Source: Armatimonadota bacterium
GTDB lineage: Bacteria; Sysuimicrobiota; Sysuimicrobiia; Sysuimicrobiales; Kaftiobacteriaceae
NCBI GenBank assembly: GCA_031459765.1
Contig: JAVKHY010000001.1
Span: forward strand, 436,149-468,155
Direction: 5' to 3'
DNA: 32,007 bases
The notes beneath the pieces are model-generated. The model was not told where the DNA came from. It did not search any database and was given only the letters and a program-made list of their open reading frames with translations. Shown piece after piece: positions 4,311 through 21,886 of this stretch (positions are counted from its first letter, which is position 1; each line of letters starts with the position of its first letter). The translations under genes and the position numbers were made by a program.

Positions 4311-5087
4311 ATGCCAGGACGCGCTCCTCGCCCCGCCCTGCCGGCCGCTCCGGCCGAATCCCCCGCCCGGCGGGCGCGCCGCGCCCTGCGCATCGTCGGG
4401 CTCCTGAAGGACCGCTACCCCCAGATCCGGATTCCGCTGGCCCACCGCGATCCGTTCCAGCTGCTGGTGGCGACCATCCTGTCGGCGCAGTGCACCGACG
4501 CCATGGTCAACCGCGTGACGCCGGTGTTGTTCGAGAAATTCAAGACGCCGCGGGACTTTGCCGCGGCGACGCCCCGGGAGATCGAGCGCCTCGTCAAGCC
4601 CACCGGGTTCTTCCGGCAGAAAACCCGCGCCATCCTCGGCATGTGCCGGTCGCTCCTGGAGCGGTTCGGCGGCCGCGTTCCGCTGACGATGGACGAGCTC
4701 GTCACCCTGGAGGGCGTCGGGCGCAAGACGGCCAATGTCGTCCTCTCGGCCAAACGGCTGGAGCCCTGGGGCGGCGGCGACGATCCCGCCGACGGCCTGG
4801 GCATCGTCGTCGATACCCACGTCCGGCGTCTCAGCCAGCGCCTCGGCCTGGCCAGCACCGACGACCCGGAGAAGATCGAGCAGGAGTTGATGAGGATCAT
4901 CCCCCGGCCGGAGTGGGCCGGCTTCTCGCTCCGCCTGATCCACTTCGGCCGCGAGGTCTGCACGGCGCGGAATCCCGGATGCGGCGACTGCCCCCTGCGG
5001 CCGCACTGTCCTTCGGCGCCGTACCGCGGAGCGCCGCCGTGGATGCGGCGCTCCCGCCCTGCGACTCCACCAGGGAGGAGACGATGA
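4311..5087 (+). CDS. nth: Endonuclease III, DNA glycosylase/AP lyase
   Basis: This is a bifunctional base-excision repair enzyme for oxidised pyrimidines. The helix-hairpin-helix is LEGVGRKTANVVLS with catalytic Lys139; catalytic Asp168 is in VVDTHVRRLSQRLG. The iron-sulfur ligands are Cys217, 224, 227 and 233, in the standard C-X6-C-X2-C-X5-C spacing. The 258 residues exceed the usual 210-220 because of an Ala/Pro/Arg-rich N-terminal tail (about 1-25), a loop EPWGGGDDPADGLG inserted before the catalytic Asp, and a basic tail after the cluster. The ATG at 4311 has no Shine-Dalgarno. The stop overlaps the next start (ATGA), so this repair gene is coupled to a peptidase gene. Confidence 0.95.
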   Translation: MPGRAPRPALPAAPAESPARRARRALRIVGLLKDRYPQIRIPLAHRDPFQLLVATILSAQCTDAMVNRVTPVLFEKFKTPRDFAAATPREIERLVKPTGFFRQKTRAILGMCRSLLERFGGRVPLTMDELVTLEGVGRKTANVVLSAKRLEPWGGGDDPADGLGIVVDTHVRRLSQRLGLASTDDPEKIEQELMRIIPRPEWAGFSLRLIHFGREVCTARNPGCGDCPLRPHCPSAPYRGAPPWMRRSRPATPPGRRR

Positions 5088-6478
5088 TCGATCTGGACCG
5101 GGTCTACGCCCACATCGACGAACATTTCGGGCGCCACCTCGACCGCGTGCAGGATTTCGTGCGTCAGCCCAGCATCAGCGGCGAGGGCGTCGGCATGCAG
5201 GAGATGGCCGAGCTGGTCGCTTCCGCCATCCGGAACCTGGGCGGGCAGAGCCGGATCATCCCCACCGCCGGATGGCCGGTGGTCTACGGCGAGCTGGACC
5301 AGGGCGCGCCGCGCACCCTGCTGCTCTACGGGATGTACGACGTCCAGCCCGTGGCCGGCGAGGAGTGGATCGTGCCGCCCTTCGGCGGCCAGGTCGTGGA
5401 CGACTTCGAGGGGCTCGGCCCCTGTCTGGTGAATCGCGGCGCGGCGAACCAGAAGGGTCCCCTCGCCGGAGCCTTCAACGCCCTGGCCAGTGTGCAGGCC
5501 GTGGCCGGGAAACTGCCCGTCAACGTCAAGTTCGTGGTGGAGGGCGAGGAAGAGCTGGGCAGCCGCCACCTGCCGGAGTTCATCGCCCGCCACAAAGACC
5601 TCCTGCGGGCCGACGGGACCTACTTTCCCGCCTTTGCCCAGGACCGCAGGGGGAAGCCGATCCTCTGGCTCGGGGTGAAGGGGATCCTCTTCTTCGAGAT
5701 GGTCTCGCGCGGCGGCGAGTGGGGCGGGCCGACCACCCGCGGCATCCACGGCAGCCAGGGGGCCTGGATCGCCAGTCCGGTGTGGCGGATGATTCACGCC
5801 CTGAAGACGATGACCTCCCCCGACGAGCGCCTGACCATCGACGGCATCTACGACAACGTCCGACCCCCGCGGCCGGAAGATGAGGAGGTCCTGGCGGCCC
5901 TGGCCCAAACCTTCGACCCGGAGGTGGTCCTGAAAGGCAACGATGTGCGGCGCTTCAAGCACGATCTGACCGGTGTCGATCTGCTCCGGCGCTACCTGTT
6001 CGATCCGATCCTGAACATCGACGGCATCGCCGGCGGGCACTACGGGCCCGGGACCAAGACGCTGCTGCCCCACGAGGTGCGGGTCAAGATGCACGTGCGC
6101 CTGGTGCCGGAGATGGAGCCCGACGAGGTTCGGGCCAAACTGCAGGCCCATCTCCGCAAGATCGGCTGCGCCGATTTCGAGGTGCACTACGAGGAAGGGT
6201 ACCCCTGGGCGCGGATGAGTCACCGGGCGCCGATCTCCCAGGCGATGATCCGCACCCTGCGCTCCTTCGGCCACGAGCCCGAGATCTGGCCGAACATCGC
6301 CGGCTCGGCGCCCTTCTACCTGTTCCAGCGGGTGCTGGGACAGCCGTTCACGATGGGCGGGATGGGCCACGGCGGCCGGCAACACAGCCCAAACGAGTAC
6401 GCGACGGTGGAGGGAATCCGGCTCTTCGAGAAGTCCGTGGCCCGCTTCCTCTACGAGTTCGCCGCGATCCGGGAGTGA
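5084..6478 (+). CDS. M20-family peptidase homologue with substituted metal ligands
   Basis: This 464-residue protein has the overall pattern of the M20 dipeptidase/deacylase family: YDVQPVAGEEWIVPPFGG near 85-102, the acid pair in EGEEELGS (Glu156/157), a dimerisation-domain His in GIHGSQGAW (His222) and a final His434 in GRQHSPNEY. Two canonical ligands differ. The first zinc His of the usual GHYDVQP is Met84 (GMYDVQP), and the bridging Asp of the usual RGA-x-D-D-KG is Asn122 (RGAANQKG). The general-base Glu is kept. Either the enzyme uses one or differently placed metals, or it has another activity. The start ATG has a GGGAGGAG ribosome site and overlaps the nth stop. No signal peptide is seen, so it is probably cytoplasmic. 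It precedes the promoter of the racemase/transport operon. Confidence 0.87.
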   Translation: MIDLDRVYAHIDEHFGRHLDRVQDFVRQPSISGEGVGMQEMAELVASAIRNLGGQSRIIPTAGWPVVYGELDQGAPRTLLLYGMYDVQPVAGEEWIVPPFGGQVVDDFEGLGPCLVNRGAANQKGPLAGAFNALASVQAVAGKLPVNVKFVVEGEEELGSRHLPEFIARHKDLLRADGTYFPAFAQDRRGKPILWLGVKGILFFEMVSRGGEWGGPTTRGIHGSQGAWIASPVWRMIHALKTMTSPDERLTIDGIYDNVRPPRPEDEEVLAALAQTFDPEVVLKGNDVRRFKHDLTGVDLLRRYLFDPILNIDGIAGGHYGPGTKTLLPHEVRVKMHVRLVPEMEPDEVRAKLQAHLRKIGCADFEVHYEEGYPWARMSHRAPISQAMIRTLRSFGHEPEIWPNIAGSAPFYLFQRVLGQPFTMGGMGHGGRQHSPNEYATVEGIRLFEKSVARFLYEFAAIRE

Positions 6479-6635: not shown

Positions 6636-7373
6636 TTGAAATTGCTCTATATCCTGCCGGGCAGCCTGTCCCGCACCGACCTGGGCCGGCGCGAGGTCGA
6701 CCGGCGCCTGGCCATCCTCCGGCGCCTGGCCGCGCCCGGTACGGAGGTGGAGATCACCGACGTGCCGGAGGGGCCGGCCTCGATTGAGTCGGCCTACGAG
6801 GAGTATCTGTCCGTTCCCGGTACCCTGCAGAAAGTGCAGGAAGCGGCGCGCCAGGGGATGGATGCGGCGATCATCGGCTGTTTCGGCGACCCCGGCGTGG
6901 ATGCGGCGCGCGAGCTGGTGGAGATGCTCGTCGTCGGCCCCGCGGAGAGCGGGATGCTTTTCGCCTGCACGCTGGGGCACCGTTTCTCCGTGGTCACCGT
7001 GCTCGACTCGGTGGTCGCCCCGCTGCGTCACCTCGCCCACCGCATCGGCGTGGCCGAGAAACTGGCCTCCGTGCGGGCGGTGGATATCCCGGTGCTCGAA
7101 CTCAACACGGACCGCGCGCGCAGCGTATCCAGGATGATCGCTTTGGGCCGCCGGGCCGTGGAAGAGGACGGCGCCGACGCCCTGGTGCTGGGGTGCATGA
7201 GCATGGGATTCCTGGAGGCGCACGCCGAGATCGCCTCGGCGGTGGGGGTGCCGGTGGTCAACCCGGTGTACGCCGCGCTGCGCATGGCGGAGGCGCTGCA
7301 CGGGGCGGGGCTGCGCCACAGCAAGCGGGCCTATCCGGTGCCGCCGAAGTTGCGGACGATGCCGGTGGGTTAG
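6636..7373 (+). CDS. Asp/Glu/hydantoin racemase family protein
   Basis: This 245-residue cofactor-independent racemase homologue carries the two catalytic Cys expected of the family: Cys82 in IIGCFGDPG and Cys187 in LVLGCMSMG, at the ends of the two half-domains. The pattern around both (GC-F/M-GDPG, LGCMSMG) is closest to hydantoin/allantoin-type racemases, though aspartate or glutamate racemase activity, or maleate isomerase chemistry, cannot be excluded. I chose the TTG start at 6636 because a strong AGGAGGTGAG ribosome site lies six to eight bases before it and no ATG or GTG fits the frame nearby. It is the first gene after the 6526 promoter and is followed by a peptide importer, suggesting a role in using D- or modified amino acids. 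Confidence 0.88.
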   Translation: MKLLYILPGSLSRTDLGRREVDRRLAILRRLAAPGTEVEITDVPEGPASIESAYEEYLSVPGTLQKVQEAARQGMDAAIIGCFGDPGVDAARELVEMLVVGPAESGMLFACTLGHRFSVVTVLDSVVAPLRHLAHRIGVAEKLASVRAVDIPVLELNTDRARSVSRMIALGRRAVEEDGADALVLGCMSMGFLEAHAEIASAVGVPVVNPVYAALRMAEALHGAGLRHSKRAYPVPPKLRTMPVG

Positions 7374-7476: not shown

Positions 7477-9141
7477 ATGACACGAGGCTGGTGGCGTATC
7501 GCAACGGTCACCGTGGGCCTGGCGTTGATCTTCGGCGCGGCGGCGTCAGGCCAGGCTCCCGACCGCCGCGTGCGGGAGCTGGTCCTGCTGACCCGGCCCC
7601 AGGCCGTCGATCCCCGGGAGTTCGAGACGGCGCGGTTCCTGGCGCCCGAGTTCGAGAAACTCGGCCTCAAGGTCTCCGTGCGCGTCATGCCCTGGGAGCA
7701 GATGGCGGACCTGGTCTGGTACAGTCGGGACAAGTGGGACATGACGATGTGGCAGATGGTGGGGCGGCCGGAGCGCTCCGATCCGGATGAATTCGCCATG
7801 AACCTGTTCCACTCCTCGACGGCGGAGAAGGGCTATAACTTTGTGGGCTACCGGAACCGGACCTACGACAGCATCGCCGAAGCGCAGCGGATCAAGACCG
7901 ACCTCAAGACGCGCCAGCAGCTCATCCGCGAGGCTCAGAAGATCATCGCCCGCGACGTGCCCTACATCTTTCTGGTCTTCCCGGAGAGCACCTACGTCTA
8001 CAACAACACCGTCTGGGATCCGAAGACCATCGTCGATCAGAAGGGGATCGGGATCAAGAACTTCTGGACCTTTATCCAGGCCAGACCGCTGGGCGGCCAG
8101 CAGGACATGATCCTGAACTACCCCGATCCGCTGCAGGCGATCAACCCGCTGTTCATCAGCGGCGCCGCCGACTCCTGGGTCACCGAGCTGATCTGGGACC
8201 GGCTCTTCCGCGTCGGTCCGGACGGGCTGCCGCGGCCCTGGGCGGCGGAAAAGGCGGACTGGGTGGATTCGGTCACGCTGGATGTGACCCTGCGGCGCGG
8301 GATGAAGTGGCACGACGGTCGCCCGGTGACCGCCGACGACGTCATCTTTTCCTTCACCGCGCCCATGGGCGACGAGGTCCCCATGTACAAGCCCTTCGTC
8401 CGCAACATCGAGCGGATCGAGAAGCGCTCGGACACGGTGCTGCGCTTCGTCCTGCGGGAGCCCTACGCGCCGTTCCTGATCGCCAGCCTGGCCAAACTCA
8501 ACATCATTCCGAAGCACGTCTGGGAGCCGGTCCTGGCCGACCTGGCCCGGAAGCCGGAGAACGCGGAGTCCTACCAGGAGCAGACGCCCATCGGCTCCGG
8601 GCCCTTCAGGTTCGTGCAGTGGAAGAAGCCGGAGGAGGTGATCCTGGAAGCGGTGCCCGACCACTTCGCCGCGCCGAAGATGCGCCGCTGGATCCTGCGC
8701 ATCATTCCCAACGTGGAGGCGGCTCTGGGCGGGCTGCGCCAGGGCCAGATCAACTTCCTCTCGGGCTACACCGGCGATCCGCAGCTGCTGGACCGCCTGG
8801 TCAAGGAGAACCGCCAGCTCACGCTCGTGTCCACGATGGACGTCGGCATGCGGTTCCTGGCCTTCAACCTGCGCCGGCCGCCCTTTGACGACGTGGCGTT
8901 CCGCCAGGCGCTGAACATGGCCACCAACAAGCGGGCCATCCGTTCCGTGGTCTGGAAGGGGTTTGCGTCCATCGCCGACTCCTTCGTCTCGCCCGCCCTG
9001 GAGTTCTGGTACAACCCGGAGATCCCCAAGTGGACGTACAACATCCAGGCGGCGCGGGAGCACCTGGCCAAAGCCGGCTACAGCTGGGACCGCGAGGGCC
9101 GGCTCCTCTATCCGGCGGGCAAAGTCGAAACCCTGAAGTAG
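7477..9141 (+). CDS. Circularly permuted family-5 peptide-binding protein of an ABC importer
   Basis: This is a secreted or lipid-bilayer-facing solute-binding protein of 554 residues. Residues 1-27 are a typical signal peptide (hydrophobic core TVTVGLALIFGAAASG). Residues about 32-200 match the usual C-terminal part of SBP_bac_5 proteins (ELVLLTRPQAVDPREFE, KLGLKVSV, WDMTMWQMVGRPERSDPDEF, ARDVPYIFLVFPESTYVYNN). Residues about 206-554 then match the usual N-terminal and middle parts (WHDGRPVTADDVIFSF near 277, GSGPFRFVQWKKPEE, FNLRRPPFDDVAFRQALN). The protein stops after AREHLAKAGYSWDREGRLLYPAGKVETLK-like sequence, just where the moved segment would continue. The conventional paralogue at 20270 has the normal order. 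GGGGGGAT before the ATG is the ribosome site; the 103-base gap before it holds nothing else I recognise. It is followed by a hairpin and the permease genes. Confidence 0.93.
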   Translation: MTRGWWRIATVTVGLALIFGAAASGQAPDRRVRELVLLTRPQAVDPREFETARFLAPEFEKLGLKVSVRVMPWEQMADLVWYSRDKWDMTMWQMVGRPERSDPDEFAMNLFHSSTAEKGYNFVGYRNRTYDSIAEAQRIKTDLKTRQQLIREAQKIIARDVPYIFLVFPESTYVYNNTVWDPKTIVDQKGIGIKNFWTFIQARPLGGQQDMILNYPDPLQAINPLFISGAADSWVTELIWDRLFRVGPDGLPRPWAAEKADWVDSVTLDVTLRRGMKWHDGRPVTADDVIFSFTAPMGDEVPMYKPFVRNIERIEKRSDTVLRFVLREPYAPFLIASLAKLNIIPKHVWEPVLADLARKPENAESYQEQTPIGSGPFRFVQWKKPEEVILEAVPDHFAAPKMRRWILRIIPNVEAALGGLRQGQINFLSGYTGDPQLLDRLVKENRQLTLVSTMDVGMRFLAFNLRRPPFDDVAFRQALNMATNKRAIRSVVWKGFASIADSFVSPALEFWYNPEIPKWTYNIQAAREHLAKAGYSWDREGRLLYPAGKVETLK

Positions 9142-9186: not shown

Positions 9187-10170
9187 ATGAAGCGTCTGAC
9201 CTTCGTCTTCAGCCGCCTCGTCCAGACCCTGCTGGTGCTGCTGGTGGTGGCGACCATTCTGTTCTTGATCTTCCGGCTGATGCCGGGCGACCCCCTGGTC
9301 GCCTACCTGGACCCCACCTTCACCGAGGAGATGGCCCAGGCGTTGCGGCGGCAGTTCGGGCTGGACCGGCCGCTCCACATCCAGTACCTGGTCTTCCTGC
9401 GGAACACGGTGCAGGGCGAGTTCGGCCACTCCTTTTTCACGCGCGAACCGGTGGCCCGGGTGATCTGGACCGTCCTGCCCAACACCCTGGCGCTGACCCT
9501 GGCCGCCCTGGTCCTGGCCTACGCCCTGGGCGTCGTCGCGGGGGCCGTGCTCGCCGCCCGGCGGGGGACGCCCCTGGAGCACTGGGGGATTCCCCTGGTC
9601 CTGGCCACGCGGGCCGCGCCGGAGTTCTGGGTGGGCATGCTGGCCCTGGCCGTGTTCAGCTTCTCCCTGCGCTGGTTCCCCTTCGGCGGAGCGACCAGCC
9701 CGGGGAGCCTCTATCCCTCGATCTGGGCCCAGCTGTTCTCGCTGGACTTCCTGCACCACCTGGCGCTGCCGGCCCTGACCCTGGCCCTCTATCTGCAGGG
9801 GCTGCCCACGTTGTTGATGCGCAACGCGATGCTCGAGGTGATGGACGAGGACTTCATCACCTTCTGCCGTATGCGCGGGCTGCCGGAGCGGACGATCCTT
9901 CTGCGCCATGCCGCGCGCAACGCCCTGCTCCCCGTGGTCACGGCCTTCGCCCTGGGCATCGGCTACTCCATCGGCGGCAACGTGATCATCGAGACCGTCT
10001 TCAGCTGGCCGGGGCTCGGCCGCACCCTGGTGCGCGCCGTGGCCGCCAAGGACTACCCCGTGGCCCAGGCCGCCTTCCTGATGATCGCCGCCGTCATGAT
10101 CGCCATGAACTTTGCGGCCGACCTGCTCTACGGCCTGCTCGATCCGCGGGTGAGCGATGAGCGACGCTGA
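9187..10170 (+). CDS. dppB: Peptide ABC importer permease, DppB/OppB type
   Basis: This 327-residue integral membrane protein starts MKRLTFVFSRLVQTLLVLLVVATILF, the usual first helix, followed by RLMPGDPLVAYL, the hallmark of DppB-type subunits. The EAA-type cytoplasmic loop, which docks on the ATPases, reads FCRMRGLPERTILLRHAARNALLP near 230-255, and the C-terminal part has IETVFSWPGLGRTLV and DPRV. It forms a heterodimer with the next gene's product, which overlaps it by 14 bases. No Shine-Dalgarno is visible, so initiation may depend on the preceding hairpin region or be weak. The specificity comes from the binding protein. Confidence 0.94.
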   Translation: MKRLTFVFSRLVQTLLVLLVVATILFLIFRLMPGDPLVAYLDPTFTEEMAQALRRQFGLDRPLHIQYLVFLRNTVQGEFGHSFFTREPVARVIWTVLPNTLALTLAALVLAYALGVVAGAVLAARRGTPLEHWGIPLVLATRAAPEFWVGMLALAVFSFSLRWFPFGGATSPGSLYPSIWAQLFSLDFLHHLALPALTLALYLQGLPTLLMRNAMLEVMDEDFITFCRMRGLPERTILLRHAARNALLPVVTAFALGIGYSIGGNVIIETVFSWPGLGRTLVRAVAAKDYPVAQAAFLMIAAVMIAMNFAADLLYGLLDPRVSDERR

Positions 10171-11083
10171 GCGCGCCCTGACCCTGCCGCCCCGGTGGGC
10201 CCAGGCCGCCGCCACCTGGCGCGAGGCGCTGCAGACGCTGGTAATCGTGGCCCGGCGGGACCGCTTCGCCCTGGCCGGTCTCCTGGTCTACCTGGTCTTC
10301 CTGATGGTGGCCCTGCTGGCGCCGGCGCTGGCCCCCTACGATCCCCTGGCGCTGAACTACCTGCCCGACGGCGAGGTGGCGGCCAACCTGCCCCCCTCAC
10401 CGGCGCACCCCCTGGGGACGACGAACCTGGGCCGCGACATCTTCTCGCAGCTGCTCTACGGCGCCCGGGCCGCGCTCATCGTGGGGTTCGTGGCCGCCCT
10501 GGGGGTGGTGATCCTGGGCACGGTCGTCGGCCTGGTCGCCGGCTACTACGGCGGTTGGATCGATGCCCTGCTCATGCGGGCGGCGGATGTGGCCTTCGGT
10601 ATTCCCTTTCTGCCCATGGCCATTGTGCTCGTGGCCTTCCTCGGTCCCAGCCTCTGGAACGTGGTCCTGGTCATGGTGCTGCTGCTGTGGCGCGACACCG
10701 GTCGCATCATCCGGGCCCAGGTGCTCACCCTGCGCGAACGCTCCTACGTGGAGTCGGCGCGGGTGCTGGGCGCCGGGCACGCCCGGACGATGTTCGTGCA
10801 CATCGCGCCCAACGTGCTGCCGCTGTCGTTCCTCTACGGGTCGCTGGCCATCGGCTGGGCCATTCTCACGGAGGCAAGCATCAGTTTCCTGGGCTTCGGC
10901 GACCCCAACGTCATCTCGTGGGGATTCATGTTGCAGGACGCCTACAACTCCCAGGCCCTGGCCCGACAGGCCTTTCACTGGTTCGTGCCGCCCGGGGTGT
11001 GCATCATGCTCACGGTGATGGCGGGGTTCTTCATCAGCCGCGGATACGAGGAACTGCTCTTTCCGCGCCTGCGGAGGCGCTGA
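10157..11083 (+). CDS. dppC: Peptide ABC importer permease, DppC/OppC type
   Basis: This 308-residue membrane subunit is the partner of the upstream permease. After a cytoplasmic N-terminus (about 1-38) comes the first helix, then APYDPLALNY, then HPLGTTNLGRDIFSQLLYGARAALIVG, the diagnostic DppC phrase. The EAA-type loop is ESARVLGAGHARTMFVHIAPNVLPL near 195-220, and the end has ILTEASISFLGFGDPN and SWGFML. It overlaps the DppB stop by 14 bases and is two bases from the ATPase start, so the operon is tightly coupled. Confidence 0.94.
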   Translation: MSDAERALTLPPRWAQAAATWREALQTLVIVARRDRFALAGLLVYLVFLMVALLAPALAPYDPLALNYLPDGEVAANLPPSPAHPLGTTNLGRDIFSQLLYGARAALIVGFVAALGVVILGTVVGLVAGYYGGWIDALLMRAADVAFGIPFLPMAIVLVAFLGPSLWNVVLVMVLLLWRDTGRIIRAQVLTLRERSYVESARVLGAGHARTMFVHIAPNVLPLSFLYGSLAIGWAILTEASISFLGFGDPNVISWGFMLQDAYNSQALARQAFHWFVPPGVCIMLTVMAGFFISRGYEELLFPRLRRR

Positions 11084-11085
11084 CC

Positions 11086-12126
11086 ATGGCGTGGCTCGAG
11101 GTGGAAGGCCTGTCCGTCGAGTACCAGACGCTCCACGGCGTGGTCCGGGCGGTCCGGGGCGTCAGCCTGGCCCTCCCGGCGGGGCGCGCCCTGGGGCTGG
11201 TCGGGGAGAGCGGCTGCGGCAAGACCACCCTGGCCCGGGCGCTGATCGGCGTGCTGCCGCGCGGAGCGCGGGTGACCGGCGGAGCGGTGCGCATGGAGGG
11301 GACCGACCTGCTGAGTCTCCCGCCCGCACAGCTCAACGAGTACCGCTGGCGCCGCATCGCCATGGTGCCCCAGGCGGCGATGGACAGCCTCGATCCGGTG
11401 CAGCGCGTCGGCGACCAGATGGTGGAGACCATGGTCCTGCGCGGAGGATACACCCGCCGGGGGGCCTGGGCGCGGGCGCGGGAGCTGTTCCTGATGGTCG
11501 GGCTGGAGGCGGACCGGCTGCGGCTGTACCCTCACGAACTGTCCGGAGGGATGAAGCAGCGGGCGGTGATCGCCCTGGCGCTGGCCCTGGGACCGCAGCT
11601 GCTGATTGCGGACGAACCGGTCACCGCCCTGGACGTGATCGTCCAGCACCAGGTCCTGAGCACGTTGCGCGACCTGCGGCGGGCCCTCAACCTCAGCCTC
11701 CTGCTCATCACCCACGACATCTCGGTGGTCGCGCATCTCTGCGACGACGTGGCGGTGATGTATGCCGGCCGCGTCGTCGAGGCCGGACCGGTGGCGGAGG
11801 TCTTTACCCGTCCCCGCCACCCGTACACCATGGGGTTGCGCAACGCCTTCCCCAGCCTGCGCGAACACCAGGACCCCCTGGTGCCGATCGAAGGCTATCC
11901 CCCCGACCTGGCCGATCCGCCGCGGGGCTGCGCCTTCGCCGCGCGCTGTCCTTTTGCGCTCCCGCGCTGCTGGGAGGAGGATCCGGTTTCGCTTCCCTCC
12001 GGGGACGGACGTTCCGCAGCCTGCCATCGGGCCGATGACGCACCCCTGCTCCGCCAGCGCGCCGCCGAGGCCTTTGCGGCGATGGCCGGGGACGAGACAC
12101 CGGTCGCTCCGCCGGAGGCGACGTGA
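11086..12126 (+). CDS. dppD: Peptide ABC importer ATP-binding protein, DppD/OppD type
   Basis: This is one of two ATPases of the importer. In 346 residues: Walker A GESGCGKTT (40-48), Q-loop Gln96 (MVPQAAMDSLDP), signature LSGGM (152-156), Walker B LLIADEP (172-178) and switch His210 (LITHDIS). The C-terminal oligopeptide extension contains HPYTMGL and four Cys (about 282, 288, 295, 313) in CAFAARCPFALPRC, the cluster known to bind iron-sulfur in OppD-type subunits. I chose ATG 11086, two bases after the DppC stop, because it places the N-terminal beta-strand LEVEGLSVEY normally; the frame is open far upstream only inside dppC. Confidence 0.94.
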   Translation: MAWLEVEGLSVEYQTLHGVVRAVRGVSLALPAGRALGLVGESGCGKTTLARALIGVLPRGARVTGGAVRMEGTDLLSLPPAQLNEYRWRRIAMVPQAAMDSLDPVQRVGDQMVETMVLRGGYTRRGAWARARELFLMVGLEADRLRLYPHELSGGMKQRAVIALALALGPQLLIADEPVTALDVIVQHQVLSTLRDLRRALNLSLLLITHDISVVAHLCDDVAVMYAGRVVEAGPVAEVFTRPRHPYTMGLRNAFPSLREHQDPLVPIEGYPPDLADPPRGCAFAARCPFALPRCWEEDPVSLPSGDGRSAACHRADDAPLLRQRAAEAFAAMAGDETPVAPPEAT

Positions 12127-12144
12127 CCGTGGGAGAGGACCGGG

Positions 12145-13131
12145 ATGCCGCTGCTTGAAGTGGAACGGCTTGAGAAGCACTACCCGCTGCACGGCGGGCT
12201 GCTGGGCTCCCTCGTCGGCGCCCGGAGGCTTGTGCACGCGGTGAACGGGATCTCCTTTGCGCTCGACGAGGGGGCAAGCTTGGGACTGGCCGGGGAGAGC
12301 GGGTGCGGGAAGACCACCACGGCCCGGCTCATCCTGCGGCTGTTGCGCCCCACCGGCGGCGTCATTCGCTTCGCCGGTCGGGACATCGCCGGACTGAACG
12401 GCGCCGAACTGCTGGCCTTCCGGCGCCGGGTCCAGTTCGTCTTTCAGAATCCCTACGAGGCGCTCAATCCGCGCTTCACCGTTCTGCGGGCGATGCTGGA
12501 GCCGCTGATCATCCACGGGATCGGGACGTCGGCGGGGGACCGGCTCGTCCGCGTGGCGGAGGCGCTGCGGCAGGTGCATCTGAACCCTCCGGAGGCCTTT
12601 TTCGCCAAGTTCCCGCACCAGCTGAGCGGCGGCCAGTTGCAGCGCGTGGTCATCGCCCGGGCCCTGCTGGTCGGCCCCGCCCTGCTCGTGGCCGACGAAC
12701 CCGTTTCCATGCTCGATGTCTCGGTGCGGGCGGGGGTGCTGAACCTGATGCGCGACCTGACCCGGCGCCGCGGGCTGACGACGCTGTACATCTCCCACGA
12801 TCTGGCGTTGATCCGCTACATGTGCACGACGACCGCGGTGATGTACCTGGGCACCATCTGCGAGATCGGCCCCACGACCGAGGTCATCGAGCGCCCGAAG
12901 CACCCCTATACGCAGGCCCTGGTCGCGGCCGTGCCCGATGCCGATCCCAACCGCCCCGTCGCGGCGGTGGAGATCAGGGAGGGGGTGCCGACCCCGCTGC
13001 GCCTGCCGCCGGGATGCCCCTTCGCCGACCGCTGCCCGCAGGTCATGGAGGTCTGCCGGCGCCTCCGGCCGCAGCTGCAGCCGGTGGAGGGAGTGCGGGT
13101 GGCGTGTCACCTCTACGGAGGAGCGCACTGA
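12145..13131 (+). CDS. dppF: Peptide ABC importer ATP-binding protein, DppF/OppF type
   Basis: This is the second ATPase of the importer, 328 residues. Walker A is GESGCGKTT (50-58), the Q-loop FVFQNPYEALNPR (Gln101), the signature LSGGQLQR, and Walker B LLVADEPVSMLDVS; the switch His is in YISHDLAL. The C-terminal tail has HPYTQAL and PPGCPFADRCPQVMEVC, the Cys-containing segment typical of the pair. GAGAGGACCGGG upstream gives a moderate ribosome site. Together with DppD it probably also energises the ATPase-less permeases at 18390-20238. The stop overlaps the regulator start (TGATG). Confidence 0.94.
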   Translation: MPLLEVERLEKHYPLHGGLLGSLVGARRLVHAVNGISFALDEGASLGLAGESGCGKTTTARLILRLLRPTGGVIRFAGRDIAGLNGAELLAFRRRVQFVFQNPYEALNPRFTVLRAMLEPLIIHGIGTSAGDRLVRVAEALRQVHLNPPEAFFAKFPHQLSGGQLQRVVIARALLVGPALLVADEPVSMLDVSVRAGVLNLMRDLTRRRGLTTLYISHDLALIRYMCTTTAVMYLGTICEIGPTTEVIERPKHPYTQALVAAVPDADPNRPVAAVEIREGVPTPLRLPPGCPFADRCPQVMEVCRRLRPQLQPVEGVRVACHLYGGAH

Positions 13132-13643
13132 TGCGAAACCAGGGCGGGCTGGACCCGCTGGACATCGAGATCATCCGCGCCCTGCAGCGCGACGGCCGGA
13201 CCCCCTACAGCACCCTGGCCGGGCAGCTCGGGGTGGCCGAAGGGACCATCCGCAAGCGCGTGGCGCGCCTTCTGGCCGAGGGCTACCTGCGCATCGTCGG
13301 CGTGGCCGCGCCCTTCAAGGTCGGGATGGACGTCGTGGCCATCATCGGGCTGAACGTGGCGCGCCAGCGCCTGACCGGGGCCCTGCGCCGACTCCAGGCC
13401 CTGGACGCCGTGCGCTACATCGCCATGACGACCGGCACCTTCGACTTCATCATCGAGGTGGTGCTGCCGAGCACGCAGGACCTCCTGCGCTTCCTGGTCA
13501 CCGACCTGGCCCGCGTGCCCGGGCTGAACCGCACCGAGACCTCGCTCGTGCTGGAGATCTCTAAACAGAGTTACGACTGGCTGCCGGCGGGCCGGCGCGC
13601 GCTCGGCCCGGCCCGGGCGGCCAAGGGAGGGTTCAGGCGGTGA
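13131..13643 (+). CDS. Lrp/AsnC-family transcriptional regulator
   Basis: This 170-residue regulator senses amino acids or related effectors. Residues about 8-60 form the AsnC-type helix-turn-helix (LDPLDIEIIRALQRDGRTPY, then LAGQLGVAEGTIRKRVARLLAEGYLRIVG). Residues about 68-145 match the ligand-binding RAM domain, with the family phrase YIAMTTGTFDFIIEVVL. The ATG at 13131 follows GGAGGAGC and overlaps the DppF stop; its own stop overlaps the next GTG. It lies inside the operon between importer and hydrolases, so it very likely controls this locus, perhaps with the inverted repeat at 6585-6608; that link is inferred only. The C-terminal tail after about 150 is Arg/Gly/Ala-rich and unremarkable. 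Confidence 0.92.
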   Translation: MRNQGGLDPLDIEIIRALQRDGRTPYSTLAGQLGVAEGTIRKRVARLLAEGYLRIVGVAAPFKVGMDVVAIIGLNVARQRLTGALRRLQALDAVRYIAMTTGTFDFIIEVVLPSTQDLLRFLVTDLARVPGLNRTETSLVLEISKQSYDWLPAGRRALGPARAAKGGFRR

Positions 13644-15406
13644 CCTACCGCGATCCGCATGAGTCCGTGCTGCTGCAGGATATCTCGCTGGACGCGCCGC
13701 GGGAACTGATCCACCGCTTCGCCCGTCTGGTGCGCGAATCCGGGAGCGAAGCGGAGTGGACTGCGGCCCGGGAGGTCGCCGGCCGGCTGGCCGGCTGGGG
13801 CATCCCGCACACCGTGCACGAGCCGCTGCTCTACCTGAGCGTCCCGGAGCGGGCGTCGGTGGAGGTCCTCGAGCCCGAACCCAGGACGATTCGGGCGAAG
13901 ACCCCTTCCTTCTCCGCCTCCACCGACGGCCGTCCGCTCCGGGGTCGTGTCGTCTACCTCCCCTCAAGCCACGGCGTCGCGGCGGATACCTTTGACGCCC
14001 CGCTGGGCGAAGCGACGGAGGAGATCCGGGGCCGGATCGCGCTCACCGAGGGGTTTCCTTCTCCGCAGAAGGTGCTGGCCATCCAGCAGCGCGGGGCGGC
14101 CGGCATCATTTTCATCCACCCCGGCGAGGCGATCCACGAGATGATCTGCACCACCATCTGGGGGGCCCCGGATCTGGACAGCCTCCCCCGGAAGCCCGCC
14201 GTGCCCGTAACCAGCGTGAACCACACCGACGGCGCTCGGCTCGTCGCCCTGTGCCGGAACGGGGGGCTCCAGGTGGCCCTGCAGACCCGGCTGCGCGAAG
14301 GCTGGATGCGCTGCCCGGTCGTCGTGGCCGAGATCCCCGGCGCCGACGAACCGGAGGTGTTCCTGCTGGCCCACGGGCACATCGATTCCTGGCACGTGGG
14401 AATCGGCGACAACGCCACGGGGGACGCCGCGCTGCTGGAACTGGCCCGCCTCTTCTGGCGCCACCGCGCCCGGCTGCGGCGGTCGTTGCGCGTCGCCTGG
14501 TGGCCGGGGCATTCCACCGGCCGCTACGCCGGATCCACCTGGTACGCCGATACCCACGCGCTGGAGCTCGTCGAGCGGTGCCTGGCCCACATGAACATCG
14601 ATTCGCCGGGATGCCGCTGGGCCACAGCGTACGAGGATATCTCCTGGATGCCGGAGGCCGAGGCGTTCTGTCAGGCCGCGATCCGCGACGCGACCGGGCA
14701 GCCCTCGATCGGGGAACGGCCGCACCGCGCCGGCGACTGGTCCTTCAACAACCTGGGCCTCACCGGATTCTACATGCTGTTCAGCACGATGCCCAAGCCC
14801 CTGCTGCGGGAGAAGGGATTCTATCCTGTCGGCGGCTGCGGCGGCAACATCGCCTGGCACACCGAGGACGACACCCTGGAGATCTTCGACGAAGCCAACC
14901 TGGCCCGGGACCTGCGCGCCTACGTGATCACAATCCTGCGGGCGCTGAACGCGCCCATCCATCCCTTCGACCTGCGGGCGGTGACGCGGGAATTCCACAC
15001 CACTCTGGCCGCCTATCAGGCGGACGCCGGCGATCACTTCGACTTCCGCCCGGCGAGGGAGGCGGTCGACGCGCTGGAGGCCGCCCTGGACCGTTTCTAC
15101 GACCGCTGCCGGACGCTGGCCGCGCGCCCCGTGGGCGACCCGGCGGTCCGGGCGGCCAACGCCACCCTGCGGCGGATACGGAGCCTGCTGGTCACGCTGA
15201 ACTTCGCCCGGGCCGATCGCTTCCGCCACGATCCCGCGGTGCCGATCCCCCCGCTGCCCGACCTGGCGCCGGCGCGGCAGCTGGCCGGGGCCGATCCGGT
15301 CATGCGCGGATTTCTCCAGACGCATCTGCTGCGGGGACAGAACCGCGTGGTCTGGACGCTCCGAGAAGCCCGCCTTCTGGCGGAGAGCGCGTCGGAGGCT
15401 CGATGA
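13640..15406 (+). CDS. M28-like metallopeptidase homologue with altered active site (first copy)
   Basis: This 588-residue protein has a protease-associated-like insert (about 95-215) within an M28-type fold. Candidate metal ligands are His247 in HGHIDSWH, Asp257 in GDNATGD, Asp321 in MNIDSPG and His407 in WHTEDDTLE. The adjacent Glu-Glu that supplies the general base and a zinc ligand in classical M28 enzymes is absent: the matching place reads WWPGHSTGRYAGSTWY (His291-Ser292). No signal peptide is present, so it is probably cytoplasmic. The GTG start overlaps the regulator stop and has GGGAGGG upstream. The C-terminal part (about 430-588) is a helical region not part of the core. The paralogue at 16605 shares this change, so the altered site is conserved and probably functional. 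Substrate unknown. Confidence 0.85.
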   Translation: MTYRDPHESVLLQDISLDAPRELIHRFARLVRESGSEAEWTAAREVAGRLAGWGIPHTVHEPLLYLSVPERASVEVLEPEPRTIRAKTPSFSASTDGRPLRGRVVYLPSSHGVAADTFDAPLGEATEEIRGRIALTEGFPSPQKVLAIQQRGAAGIIFIHPGEAIHEMICTTIWGAPDLDSLPRKPAVPVTSVNHTDGARLVALCRNGGLQVALQTRLREGWMRCPVVVAEIPGADEPEVFLLAHGHIDSWHVGIGDNATGDAALLELARLFWRHRARLRRSLRVAWWPGHSTGRYAGSTWYADTHALELVERCLAHMNIDSPGCRWATAYEDISWMPEAEAFCQAAIRDATGQPSIGERPHRAGDWSFNNLGLTGFYMLFSTMPKPLLREKGFYPVGGCGGNIAWHTEDDTLEIFDEANLARDLRAYVITILRALNAPIHPFDLRAVTREFHTTLAAYQADAGDHFDFRPAREAVDALEAALDRFYDRCRTLAARPVGDPAVRAANATLRRIRSLLVTLNFARADRFRHDPAVPIPPLPDLAPARQLAGADPVMRGFLQTHLLRGQNRVVWTLREARLLAESASEAR

Positions 15407-18389: not shown

Positions 18390-19340
18390 ATGCACCGCTA
18401 CGTGCTGCGCCGGCTGACCGTCATGGTGCCGATCCTGCTGGGCATCACCGTGGTCAGCTACGTCATCATGTCCCTCACCCCCGGCGATCCGGTGCAGATG
18501 CTGATCAGCCCCAGCATGAGCGCGGAGGACATGGCGATCCGGCGGAAGGCTCTGGGGCTGGACCAGCCGGTGCACATTCGGTACGTGAAGTGGCTGGGGG
18601 AGCTGGTGCGGGGCAACCTCGGCTACTCCTTCAGCAGCGGCGCACCGGTGACCCGGAGGGTCGGGGAGCGCATCATCCCCACCCTCAAGCTCACGGGCAC
18701 GGCGCTGCTGCTCTCCTACCTGATCGGCATCCCGGTCGGGGTGGTCGCGGCGACCAGGCGCTACAGCACGACCGACTACCTGGTGACGGTCATCACCTTC
18801 TTGGGGATCAGCCTGCCCACGTTCTTCCTGGGGCTGGCCGGGATCTACATCTTCGCCCTGCGGCTGAGGTGGCTGCCGGTGGGCGGGACGATGACCCTCG
18901 GCGGAGAGGGCGGATTCCTGGACGGGCTGCACCACCTCATCCTTCCGGCCGGCGTCCTGGCCGTGGCCGGCGCCGGGGTGGTGGCCCGGTACGTGCGGAG
19001 CAGCCTGCTGGAGGTGCTGGGACAGGACTACGTGCGCACGGCGCGGGCCAAGGGGCTGGCCGAAGCGCTGGTGTTGCGCCGGCACGCCCTGCGCAACGCC
19101 CTGATCCCGGTGATCACGCTGGCCGGGCTGCAGATCCCGGCCCTGCTGGCCGGCGCCGTGATCACCGAGCAGGTCTTCGAATGGCCGGGGATGGGGCGGC
19201 TGACCATCGAGGCCATCAACCAGCGCGACTATCCCGTGATGATGGCGATCACGCTCATCACGGCGGTCCTGGTCGCCGCCGGCAATCTGCTGGCCGACAT
19301 CGCCTACGCCGCGGCCGATCCGCGCATCCACTATGAGTGA
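18390..19340 (+). CDS. Second peptide ABC importer permease, DppB/OppB type
   Basis: This 316-residue membrane subunit begins MHRYVLRRLTVMVPILLGITVVSYVIMSLTPGDPVQML, residues characteristic of DppB subunits (quoted phrases within: VPILLGITVVSY, TPGDPVQML). The EAA-type loop reads YVRTARAKGLAEALVLRRHALR near 212-233 and the C-terminus has TEQVFEWPGMGRL and DPRI. It begins six bases after the M28-like stop without a clear ribosome site and overlaps the next permease by eight bases. It is closer in style to dipeptide/nickel-type permeases than the copy at 9187 is, so the two systems are old paralogues rather than a recent duplication. Confidence 0.94.
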   Translation: MHRYVLRRLTVMVPILLGITVVSYVIMSLTPGDPVQMLISPSMSAEDMAIRRKALGLDQPVHIRYVKWLGELVRGNLGYSFSSGAPVTRRVGERIIPTLKLTGTALLLSYLIGIPVGVVAATRRYSTTDYLVTVITFLGISLPTFFLGLAGIYIFALRLRWLPVGGTMTLGGEGGFLDGLHHLILPAGVLAVAGAGVVARYVRSSLLEVLGQDYVRTARAKGLAEALVLRRHALRNALIPVITLAGLQIPALLAGAVITEQVFEWPGMGRLTIEAINQRDYPVMMAITLITAVLVAAGNLLADIAYAAADPRIHYE

Positions 19341-20238
19341 CGCCGTGTCCGTGCCTTCCGCCCTCCGGCCGTCCCGGCCGGCGCGTCCGGTCACCTTCTG
19401 GAGCCTGGCCCTGCAGCGGTTCCTGCGGCACCGTTTGGCCGTGACCGGGCTGCTGGTGATGGTCGCCGTCAGCCTGCTGGCCGTCGGGGCGGCGGTGGTG
19501 GCGCCCCATGCGCCGACGGCCATCGACCCCATGGCGTTCCAGGCCGCGCCTTCGCCCACCCATCCGCTGGGAACGGACAGCGTGGGGCGGGACGTGTTGA
19601 GCCGCCTGATCTACGCGGCGCGCGTCTCGCTGACCGTGGGCGTGCTGGCCGTGGCGATGTACGCGGCCATCGGCACGGCGGTGGGCGCCGCGGCCGGATA
19701 CTACGGCGGGACACTGGATCTCGTCCTCAGCCGGGTCATGGATGTGATGCTGTCCTTCCCGCCGCTCATCATCATCCTCTTCGCCGTCAGCGTGTTCGGC
19801 CGGCCGAGCATCTGGAACGTCGTGGTCGTCCTGGGTCTGCTGGGCTGGCCGGCCCTGGCCCGCCTGGTGCGCGGGCAGTTCCTGGCCCTGCGCGACCTGG
19901 AGTTCGTCCTGGCCGCGCGGGCCGTGGGCGCGTCCGATGCGCGCGTCGTGATCCGGCACATGCTACCCAACGCCCTGGCCCCGGTGCTGGTCGCGGCGAC
20001 CTTCGGCATGGCCAACGCCATCTTGATCGAGGCCGCGCTGTCCTTTCTGGGGATGGGCGTGCAGCCGCCGACGCCGTCCTGGGGCAACATGCTCACCGAC
20101 GCGCAGTCGCTCACGGTGCTGGAACGGATGCCCTGGCTGTGGGTGCCGCCCGGCTTCATGATTCTGATCTCGGTGCTGTCCATCAACTTCATGGGCGACG
20201 GCCTCCGGGACGCGCTGGACCCGGGGCTGCGGCTGTAG
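19333..20238 (+). CDS. Second peptide ABC importer permease, DppC/OppC type
   Basis: This 301-residue partner permease has a cytoplasmic N-terminus (about 1-34), then HPLGTDSVGRDVLSRLIYAARVSLTVG, the diagnostic DppC phrase, and an EAA-type loop AARAVGASDARVVIRHMLPNALAP near 195-218. Its end has EAALSFLGMGVQPPTPSWGNML, ending in GLRDALDPGLRL. The start overlaps the DppB-type stop by eight bases. No ATPase gene follows; instead a binding-protein gene comes 31 bases downstream. It must therefore borrow ATPases, most simply the pair at 11086-13131. Confidence 0.94.
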   Translation: MSDAVSVPSALRPSRPARPVTFWSLALQRFLRHRLAVTGLLVMVAVSLLAVGAAVVAPHAPTAIDPMAFQAAPSPTHPLGTDSVGRDVLSRLIYAARVSLTVGVLAVAMYAAIGTAVGAAAGYYGGTLDLVLSRVMDVMLSFPPLIIILFAVSVFGRPSIWNVVVVLGLLGWPALARLVRGQFLALRDLEFVLAARAVGASDARVVIRHMLPNALAPVLVAATFGMANAILIEAALSFLGMGVQPPTPSWGNMLTDAQSLTVLERMPWLWVPPGFMILISVLSINFMGDGLRDALDPGLRL

Positions 20239-20269
20239 CGGGGAGAGGCAGGAAAGGGGGAGGAGAGGG

Positions 20270-21886
20270 ATGACGCAGAGATGCCGATGGCGGGTCTTCG
20301 TCGTCGCGGTCCTGGCCGCGGCGCTGGTGCTGCCGGCGGGGACGCTGGCCGCCCCGAAGTCCCAGCTGGTGGTGGTGGCGGGGATGTGGAGTCCGCCCAA
20401 CAACTTCAGCCCCATCAACACCGACAGTTCCTACGGGTACTACTGTGTCCGCTTCATGTTCCAGGGCATGCTGGAGACGCGGATCGAGAACAACCAGATG
20501 AAGTTCGTGCCGGCGCTGGCCAGCCGGTGGGAGGTGGGCGAGGACCGGCAGACCTTCCGCTTCACCCTCCACCCCCGGGCGGCCTGGCACGACGGCCGGC
20601 CCGTCACCGCGGAGGACGTCCTCTTCACGGTGATGACGATCACCGACCCCCGAACCCAGACCAACCGCGGGGCGGAGCTGGCCACCATCGCCGGCCTCAC
20701 CGCCGGCGGCAAGCGCGTGGAGGGGCAGCCGCTCGGGTTCCGGATCCTGGGGCCGAAGTCCTTCGAGGTCAGAACCAAGGCGCCGGTGGATCCGCAGATG
20801 TTCCTGGAGCGCTTCGGCGGGAACGTCTACATCATCCCCCGGCACATCCTGGGCGCCGTGCCGCCGGCGGACTTGGCCCGGCACCCCTTCTTCCTGAATC
20901 CCACCGTGGGCAACGGGCCCTTCAAGTTCGTCCAGTACAAGACCGACCAGTTCGTGGAGTTCGTGGCCAATGACGCCTACCACAACGGCGCCCCGCAGGT
21001 GCGGCGCGTCTTCGTCCGCATCATCCCGCCGACGACGATGCTGGCCCAGCTGGAACGCCAGGACCTGGACGTCAGCGCCGGATTCGGCATCGGCGAGATC
21101 CTCATCGAGGACTGGGAGCGCGTCAAGGCCATGCCCCACGTCCGTGCCGTGAGCATCCCGGCGCCGGGGTACCAGTTCATGTCCTTCAACTTCGCCCGGG
21201 ACTACCTGGCGGACAAGCGGGTGCGCCGGGCCATGGCTCATGCCATCAACCGCCCGCTGATCGTGAACCAGCTGTACCGCGGCGAGGCGCAGATCGCCGA
21301 AGGGCCCATCCCGCCCTCCAACCCGTACTTCAACAAGAACGTCAAGCCCTGGGCCTACGACCCGGCGCGGGCCCGGGCGCTGCTCCAGGAAGCGGGGTGG
21401 GACTTCAACCGGACCATCATCCTGCGCGTTCCCACGGGGAACATCCTCCGCGAGCGGTCGGCGGACATCATCCGGGAGAACCTGGTGGCGGTGGGGATCA
21501 AGACGGAGATCCAGAAGTCCGACTTCCCGACGCACCTGTCGGCCCTGTACGCCAAGAACTACGACCTGGCCCTCGTCGGCTGGGCGGGACCCACCGACCC
21601 CGACGTCAGCTCCCAGTTCCGCACCGGCGGCCAGTACAACTTCACGCACCACAGCATTCCCCAGATGGACCAGCTCCTGGACGAGGGTGTCCGGACCGCC
21701 GATCCGGCCAAGCGCCGGGCGATCTACGACCGGTTCCAGGAGCTGTTTGCCGACGAACTGCCCTACGTCGTCCTGTACTATCCCAACGGCCGGGCGGCGG
21801 TGGCCCGACGGATGAGCAACGTGCTCTACGACGTGGCCGGCCTTTACGATTACCAGACCTACACCTGGGTCGCCGGGACGCAGTAG
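20270..21886 (+). CDS. Second peptide-binding protein, SBP family 5 (normal domain order)
   Basis: This 538-residue exported binding protein belongs to the second importer. Residues 1-28 are a signal peptide (RVFVVAVLAAALVLPAGTLA). The order is conventional: NNFSPINTDSSYGYY, WHDGRPVTAEDVLFTV near 107, GNGPFKFVQYKTDQ, FNFARDYLADKRVRRAMAHAIN, then the C-terminal lobe (AVGIKTEIQK, YDLALVGWAGPTDPD, ADELPYVVLYYPNGRAA). It serves as the internal reference showing that the protein at 7477 is permuted. A purine-rich ribosome site (GGGGGAGGAGAGGG) precedes the ATG. A perfect hairpin follows the stop, as after the first binding-protein gene. No lipobox Cys is seen after the signal. Confidence 0.95.
   Translation: MTQRCRWRVFVVAVLAAALVLPAGTLAAPKSQLVVVAGMWSPPNNFSPINTDSSYGYYCVRFMFQGMLETRIENNQMKFVPALASRWEVGEDRQTFRFTLHPRAAWHDGRPVTAEDVLFTVMTITDPRTQTNRGAELATIAGLTAGGKRVEGQPLGFRILGPKSFEVRTKAPVDPQMFLERFGGNVYIIPRHILGAVPPADLARHPFFLNPTVGNGPFKFVQYKTDQFVEFVANDAYHNGAPQVRRVFVRIIPPTTMLAQLERQDLDVSAGFGIGEILIEDWERVKAMPHVRAVSIPAPGYQFMSFNFARDYLADKRVRRAMAHAINRPLIVNQLYRGEAQIAEGPIPPSNPYFNKNVKPWAYDPARARALLQEAGWDFNRTIILRVPTGNILRERSADIIRENLVAVGIKTEIQKSDFPTHLSALYAKNYDLALVGWAGPTDPDVSSQFRTGGQYNFTHHSIPQMDQLLDEGVRTADPAKRRAIYDRFQELFADELPYVVLYYPNGRAAVARRMSNVLYDVAGLYDYQTYTWVAGTQ

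Follow-up and report, generated by a model that had tools for sequence, protein, structure and literature searches.

Introduction

One naturally permuted binding protein of the ABC-importer type, TpMglB-2 (Tp0684) of Treponema pallidum, has been characterized; its authors proposed a 'Cluster Bc' to accommodate it (PMC4990184). TpMglB-2 keeps the bilobed fold and its circular permutation is common to many species. Proteins of this type belong to cluster B (glucose/galactose binding), occur mostly in treponemes and Gram-positives and are probably tethered (PMC4990184). Within cluster C (family 5: AppA, DppA, NikA, OppA), the importer of closest architecture is DppABCDF of Escherichia coli, whose DppA has its segments in the ordinary order and uses Arg383 and Asp436 both to bind the dipeptide and to contact the scoop loop of DppB (PMC12136057). 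A search of open-licence papers for permuted cluster-C or oligopeptide-binding proteins gave nothing relevant beyond TpMglB-2 (subscription journals may mention one), and the literature and PDB sequences searched held neither a solved structure nor binding data for a permuted cluster-C member.

Here we describe a protein encoded in a 32,007-nucleotide stretch of the genome of an Armatimonadota bacterium (phylum Sysuimicrobiota; the whole stretch is referred to as the window). We are highly confident that it is a natural, circularly permuted cluster-C substrate-binding protein, exported and serving as the receptor of a DppBCDF-type importer, most likely as an ordinary two-lobed Venus flytrap. 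Like TpMglB-2 it is a naturally permuted binding protein of the ABC-importer type, as judged here from sequence; unlike TpMglB-2 it belongs to cluster C, and its kind is found in Sysuimicrobiota, Chloroflexota, Alphaproteobacteria and Halobacteria. Since the two proteins come from different clusters, their permutations are independent.

Results

The two blocks of the chain are swapped

The features of the protein and its neighbours are collected in Table 1. The open reading frame is present as originally predicted, and matches to PF00496 and AppA now place the usual C-terminal segment directly behind the signal peptide (block B) and the usual N-terminal and middle part second in the chain (block A). 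The family-5 signature, noted near residue 277, lies at residues 278–289, compared with about residues 105–116 in the window's ordinary binding protein (20270–21886). The protein ends at PAGKVETLK, which is indeed the adjoining point where block B would normally begin.

Table 1. Features of the permuted binding protein and of the genes around it (window coordinates).
Feature	Position	Strand	Basis
M20-family peptidase, neighbour in close relatives	5084..6478	+	window and relatives' loci
Asp/Glu/hydantoin racemase family protein, conserved neighbour	6636..7373	+	window and relatives' loci
Circularly permuted family-5 (cluster C) substrate-binding protein, 554 aa	7477..9141	+	ORF, PF00496 match order, rotation scan
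Putative signal peptide, residues about 1–26 (...GAAASGQ), lipobox cysteine absent	7477..7554	+	sequence
Moved block B, residues 33–203, canonical C-terminal part of the family	7573..8085	+	AppA match, profile 288–366, rotated alignments
R40, aligned with E. coli DppA Arg383	7594..7596	+	alignment
E99, aligned with E. coli DppA Asp436	7771..7773	+	alignment
Linker IQARPLGGQ, residues about 200–208, usual C terminus to usual N terminus	8074..8100	+	alignments
Block A, residues 204–554, canonical N-terminal and middle part	8086..9138	+	profile 2–287, AppA match
Family-5 signature region WHDGRPVTADDV, residues 278–289	8308..8343	+	ORF, comparison with ordinary protein 20270–21886
DppB-type permease, partner of the permuted protein	9187..10170	+	annotation of window
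DppC-type permease	10157..11083	+	annotation of window
DppD-type ATPase with oligo_HPY	11080..12126	+	annotation of window
DppF-type ATPase with oligo_HPY	12145..13131	+	annotation of window
Lrp/AsnC-family regulator, conserved neighbour in close relatives	13128..13643	+	window and relatives' loci
M28-family peptidase, conserved neighbour	13640..15406	+	window and relatives' loci

PF00496 (SBP_bac_5) matches the protein with 227.9 bits (curated cut-off 32.4) in two swapped stretches: in a profile search of the genome, profile positions 2–287 lie downstream of 288–366, and the window protein departs from the canonical succession of N-terminal, middle and C-terminal segments. AppA (1XOC) is likewise matched in two swapped pieces, residues 225–539 of the query corresponding to AppA 38–348 and residues 54–171 to AppA 379–491. 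A rotation scan against 44 ordinary relatives gave the highest summed score with the cut at residues 193–213, in agreement with the proposed rotation near residue 205, and the rotated chain was the better single match for 42 of these relatives. When rotated at 203/204, the chain aligns as one domain with an ordinary protein from a genome of the same family and phylum (E = 4e-49) and with AppA (1XOC; E = 3.5e-48). The remaining SBP_bac_5 proteins of the same genome for which both halves could be placed are all in the ordinary order.

The original prediction had based the swap on a match to the end of the protein at 20270–21886. The permutation itself stands; direct BLASTP support for the C-terminal half does not. 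BLASTP against this protein aligned only the N-terminal and middle half (264–550) and left the C-terminal half unmatched, and a pairwise rotation test showed no gain because the C-terminal half of that protein is too diverged for pairwise detection. It is therefore a weak yardstick, although the conclusion drawn from it was right.

Apart from the order of its blocks, the protein resembles the rest of cluster C. It shows homology over its whole length once rotated, carries the WHDG..(V/L)TADDV signature, is exported and has DppBCDF-type neighbours; it differs in its permuted blocks, in the predicted position of its termini in lobe II and in the fusion of the usual termini by a linker. The Pfam, NCBIfam and PDB sequence matches listed all belong to cluster C/family 5, none of them pointing to cluster B, and among the PDB sequence matches listed there was no permuted cluster-C member, the best stretch in each of them covering block A only. 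Cluster-C homology combined with a non-canonical order identifies a permuted variant rather than an ordinary member. The order of the profile segments, the rotation scan, collinear homologues with identical breakpoints and trees of either half (see below) all support a true circular permutation of a family-5 binding protein, as had been proposed.

Predicted fold and ligand-contacting residues

AlphaFold2 (AF2) gave a pLDDT of 62 and a pTM of 0.63 with ten permuted sequences of close homologues. Omission of the signal peptide and addition of fragments of ordinary proteins, themselves unchanged but aligned to the permuted chain in swapped positions, raised these values to 79.6 and 0.78. Foldseek matched the AF2 model to AppA, NikZ and DppA with E-values down to 1.7e-21; the matches cover only about 350–370 columns because the alignment follows sequence order. 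According to the sequence alignment, block B would supply the distal half of lobe II and then lead back into lobe I. Alignment with E. coli DppA puts the cut in the lobe II loop just ahead of the strand that bears Arg383, from which it would follow that the new termini lie within the second lobe, as anticipated. Both ends of the chain, the signal peptide set aside, would thus sit in a surface loop of lobe II, with the short linker connecting the former termini in lobe I. We infer that the folded shape and the mechanism are those of DppA and AppA.

R40 lies about seven residues past the start of the moved block. The position equivalent to Arg383 is arginine in only 13 of 38 permuted proteins, and the carboxylate contact is therefore not general. 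The counterpart of Asp436 is acidic in 32 of the 38, a mostly retained acid that may point to ligands with a free amino group.

A complete importer adjoins the permuted gene

In every locus with enough flanking sequence the permuted gene adjoins DppBCDF-type genes, mostly in the order SBP-DppB-DppC-DppD-DppF. The transporter architecture is that of E. coli DppABCDF. The racemase and the M28 peptidase are common neighbours among the closer relatives, which often also have an M20 peptidase, a hydantoinase/oxoprolinase and Lrp or IclR regulators; D-aminoacylases are present at one haloarchaeal locus. The ligand of the permuted receptor is presumably a peptide or peptide-like compound, and a standard permease would take over peptides or peptide-like amides from it. 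The scoop region of the partner DppB has the same length as that of an ordinary DppB of the window, and we found no special adaptation of the partner permease in this region. The window's DppB (YLDPT) shows no evident counterpart of the residue pair E41-R42 found in the scoop loop of E. coli DppB.

A second importer set at 18390–21886 consists of DppB- and DppC-type permeases and the binding protein in ordinary order. It has no adjacent ATPase genes within the window, and may share the DppD/DppF pair at 11080–13131.

The same order recurs in two domains of life

A search for homologues of like order, suggested as a check for a clade feature, was positive. In all, 38 distinct homologues (28–88% identity) from Sysuimicrobiota, Chloroflexota, Alphaproteobacteria and Halobacteria share this order and both breakpoints; with the window's own protein, and after removal of duplicates, this gives 39 permuted proteins that are collinear from end to end. 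Past the signal peptide, each of them opens with the strand that in ordinary proteins comes after the 'AGY.WD..G.L.YP' loop, and each terminates inside this loop (one frameshifted member was excluded from the comparison).

Strong matches are present in 16 of 43 genomes of the phylum, the source genome included, and nearly all extend end to end in the same order. Ten contigs in a species-level genome collection carry the permuted protein, among them contigs of Alphaproteobacteria and of a Caldilineae member. With three to five candidates scored per genome, so that the counts are lower bounds, matches occur in at least 11 of 249 genomes of an order-level sample round a Rhizobiaceae genome, and in at least 3 of 251 and at least 1 of 399 genomes of phylum-level samples round a Caldilineae and the Rhizobiaceae genome respectively (centre genomes counted). 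The gene is also found on plasmids, several of them complete and circular, of Neorhizobium, Nitratireductor, Roseomonas, Microvirga, Ketogulonicigenium, Maritalea and haloarchaea; a junction-spanning query (the first 376 residues of an alphaproteobacterial member) retrieved 38 plasmid records, many of them haloarchaeal. Scans of viral contigs gave no relatives of the permuted protein and phage records gave ordinary-order pieces only.

The gene is under purifying selection, with dN/dS against two close relatives of 0.13–0.17 overall and 0.06–0.11 in the moved block. The presence of the same swap in several phyla and in salt-loving archaea marks it as an old arrangement passed on by inheritance, rather than an error of sequencing.

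Some members are noteworthy in their own right. A frameshift splits the permuted gene in the Neorhizobium galegae VafX2 plasmid (L054, 8923–10576) and in a further locus (L048, 1094–2721); it is in one piece on other N. galegae plasmids, and the split reflects either a sequencing error or a pseudogene. One Rhizobiaceae genome (G046; L061, L062) encodes two permuted proteins from different branches of the clade, with 59% and 29% identity to the window's. Haloarchaeal megaplasmids repeatedly encode permuted binding proteins (L057, L058, L060, H53–H77), some with lipobox or Tat-like signals, and those members are probably tethered at lobe II. Across the whole set a lipobox pattern occurs in only 4 of 39 N termini, and tethering, as proposed for TpMglB-2, is accordingly a weak explanation for the permutation here.

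Phylogeny and origin

In trees of the rotated permuted proteins together with ordinary proteins, the permuted set lies on one side of a branch (SH-aLRT 99). The same split is recovered with block A (SH-aLRT 99) or block B (SH-aLRT 93) alone, which is evidence against a chimera. From this grouping in the full and half trees a single origin is the simplest reading, although the ordinary proteins come mainly from one phylum and the nearest ordinary relatives elsewhere may be missing. The nearest sampled sister in ordinary order is a small family-5 family of the same phylum (L095, L106–L111); it matches the rotated protein through to the C terminus, and its members with long enough flanks are also near DppB-type genes. 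The predicted route, tandem duplication followed by trimming, is plausible, and no duplicated intermediate was seen among the homologues. We suggest a single swap event, which probably took place within a transporter operon already present, through duplication and trimming; the permuted gene would then have spread both vertically and horizontally.

Discussion

How far does the permutation reach into function? The boldest reading is that the permuted proteins form an ancient class of single origin across Bacteria and Archaea, a 'cluster Cc', whose receptors are mechanically or functionally distinct in closure, release or docking. We regard this as tentative and rather doubtful. If true, termini placed beside the strand of lobe II that contacts the ligand would make the receptor distinct, and this would account for the retention of the swap. 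That the permutation alters function, either through an effect of the nearby termini on closure, release or permease docking or because the protein is a sensor, seems to us improbable. The closeness of R40 to the start of the moved block and the variability of the Arg383 position within the clade speak for such a change, but the complete importer beside the gene wherever flanks suffice, the ordinary length of the partner's scoop region and the mostly acidic counterpart of Asp436 argue against it. We favour an ordinary Venus flytrap receptor with a permuted chain.

The cut falls in a helix-strand loop of variable length among ordinary proteins, and this site may therefore be tolerant, which would leave room for several independent permutations in the same loop. 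The position of all permuted proteins on one side of the branch, in the full tree as in both half trees, and the two breakpoints common to all of them make repeated origin very unlikely.

It could also be supposed that an unrelated domain makes up the first 200 residues, with a truncated family-5 protein fused behind it, as the restriction of the direct BLASTP match with the window's second binding protein to the 264–550 half might indicate. This is contradicted by the profile and sequence matches: AppA 379–491 and PF00496 288–366 both fall in the N-terminal block, a single domain match crosses the junction after rotation, and block B alone aligns with the family and can be placed in its tree. 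We consider such a fusion exceedingly improbable. The chance that an ordinary gene was rearranged in assembly or sequencing is negligible: the source assembly is fragmented (29 contigs), but an identical block order turns up in numerous independent genomes as well as on complete plasmids of Neorhizobium, Ketogulonicigenium, Nitratireductor and haloarchaea, which refutes it, and identical breakpoints among homologues and purifying selection also stand against it.

Natural permutations are hardly described for the binding proteins of ABC importers, and the literature searched held one, in another structural cluster. The protein described here adds a second case, widespread and independent of the first, from the peptide/nickel/oligosaccharide class. 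It had been hidden by automatic annotation, which labels these genes simply as 'ABC transporter substrate-binding protein'. With its termini predicted to lie in lobe II the protein offers a ready scaffold for biosensor design. For the family, it indicates that the receptor can change its topology and still be paired with an ordinary permease, and it amounts to an experiment of nature on how far flytrap closure and docking depend on where the termini lie.
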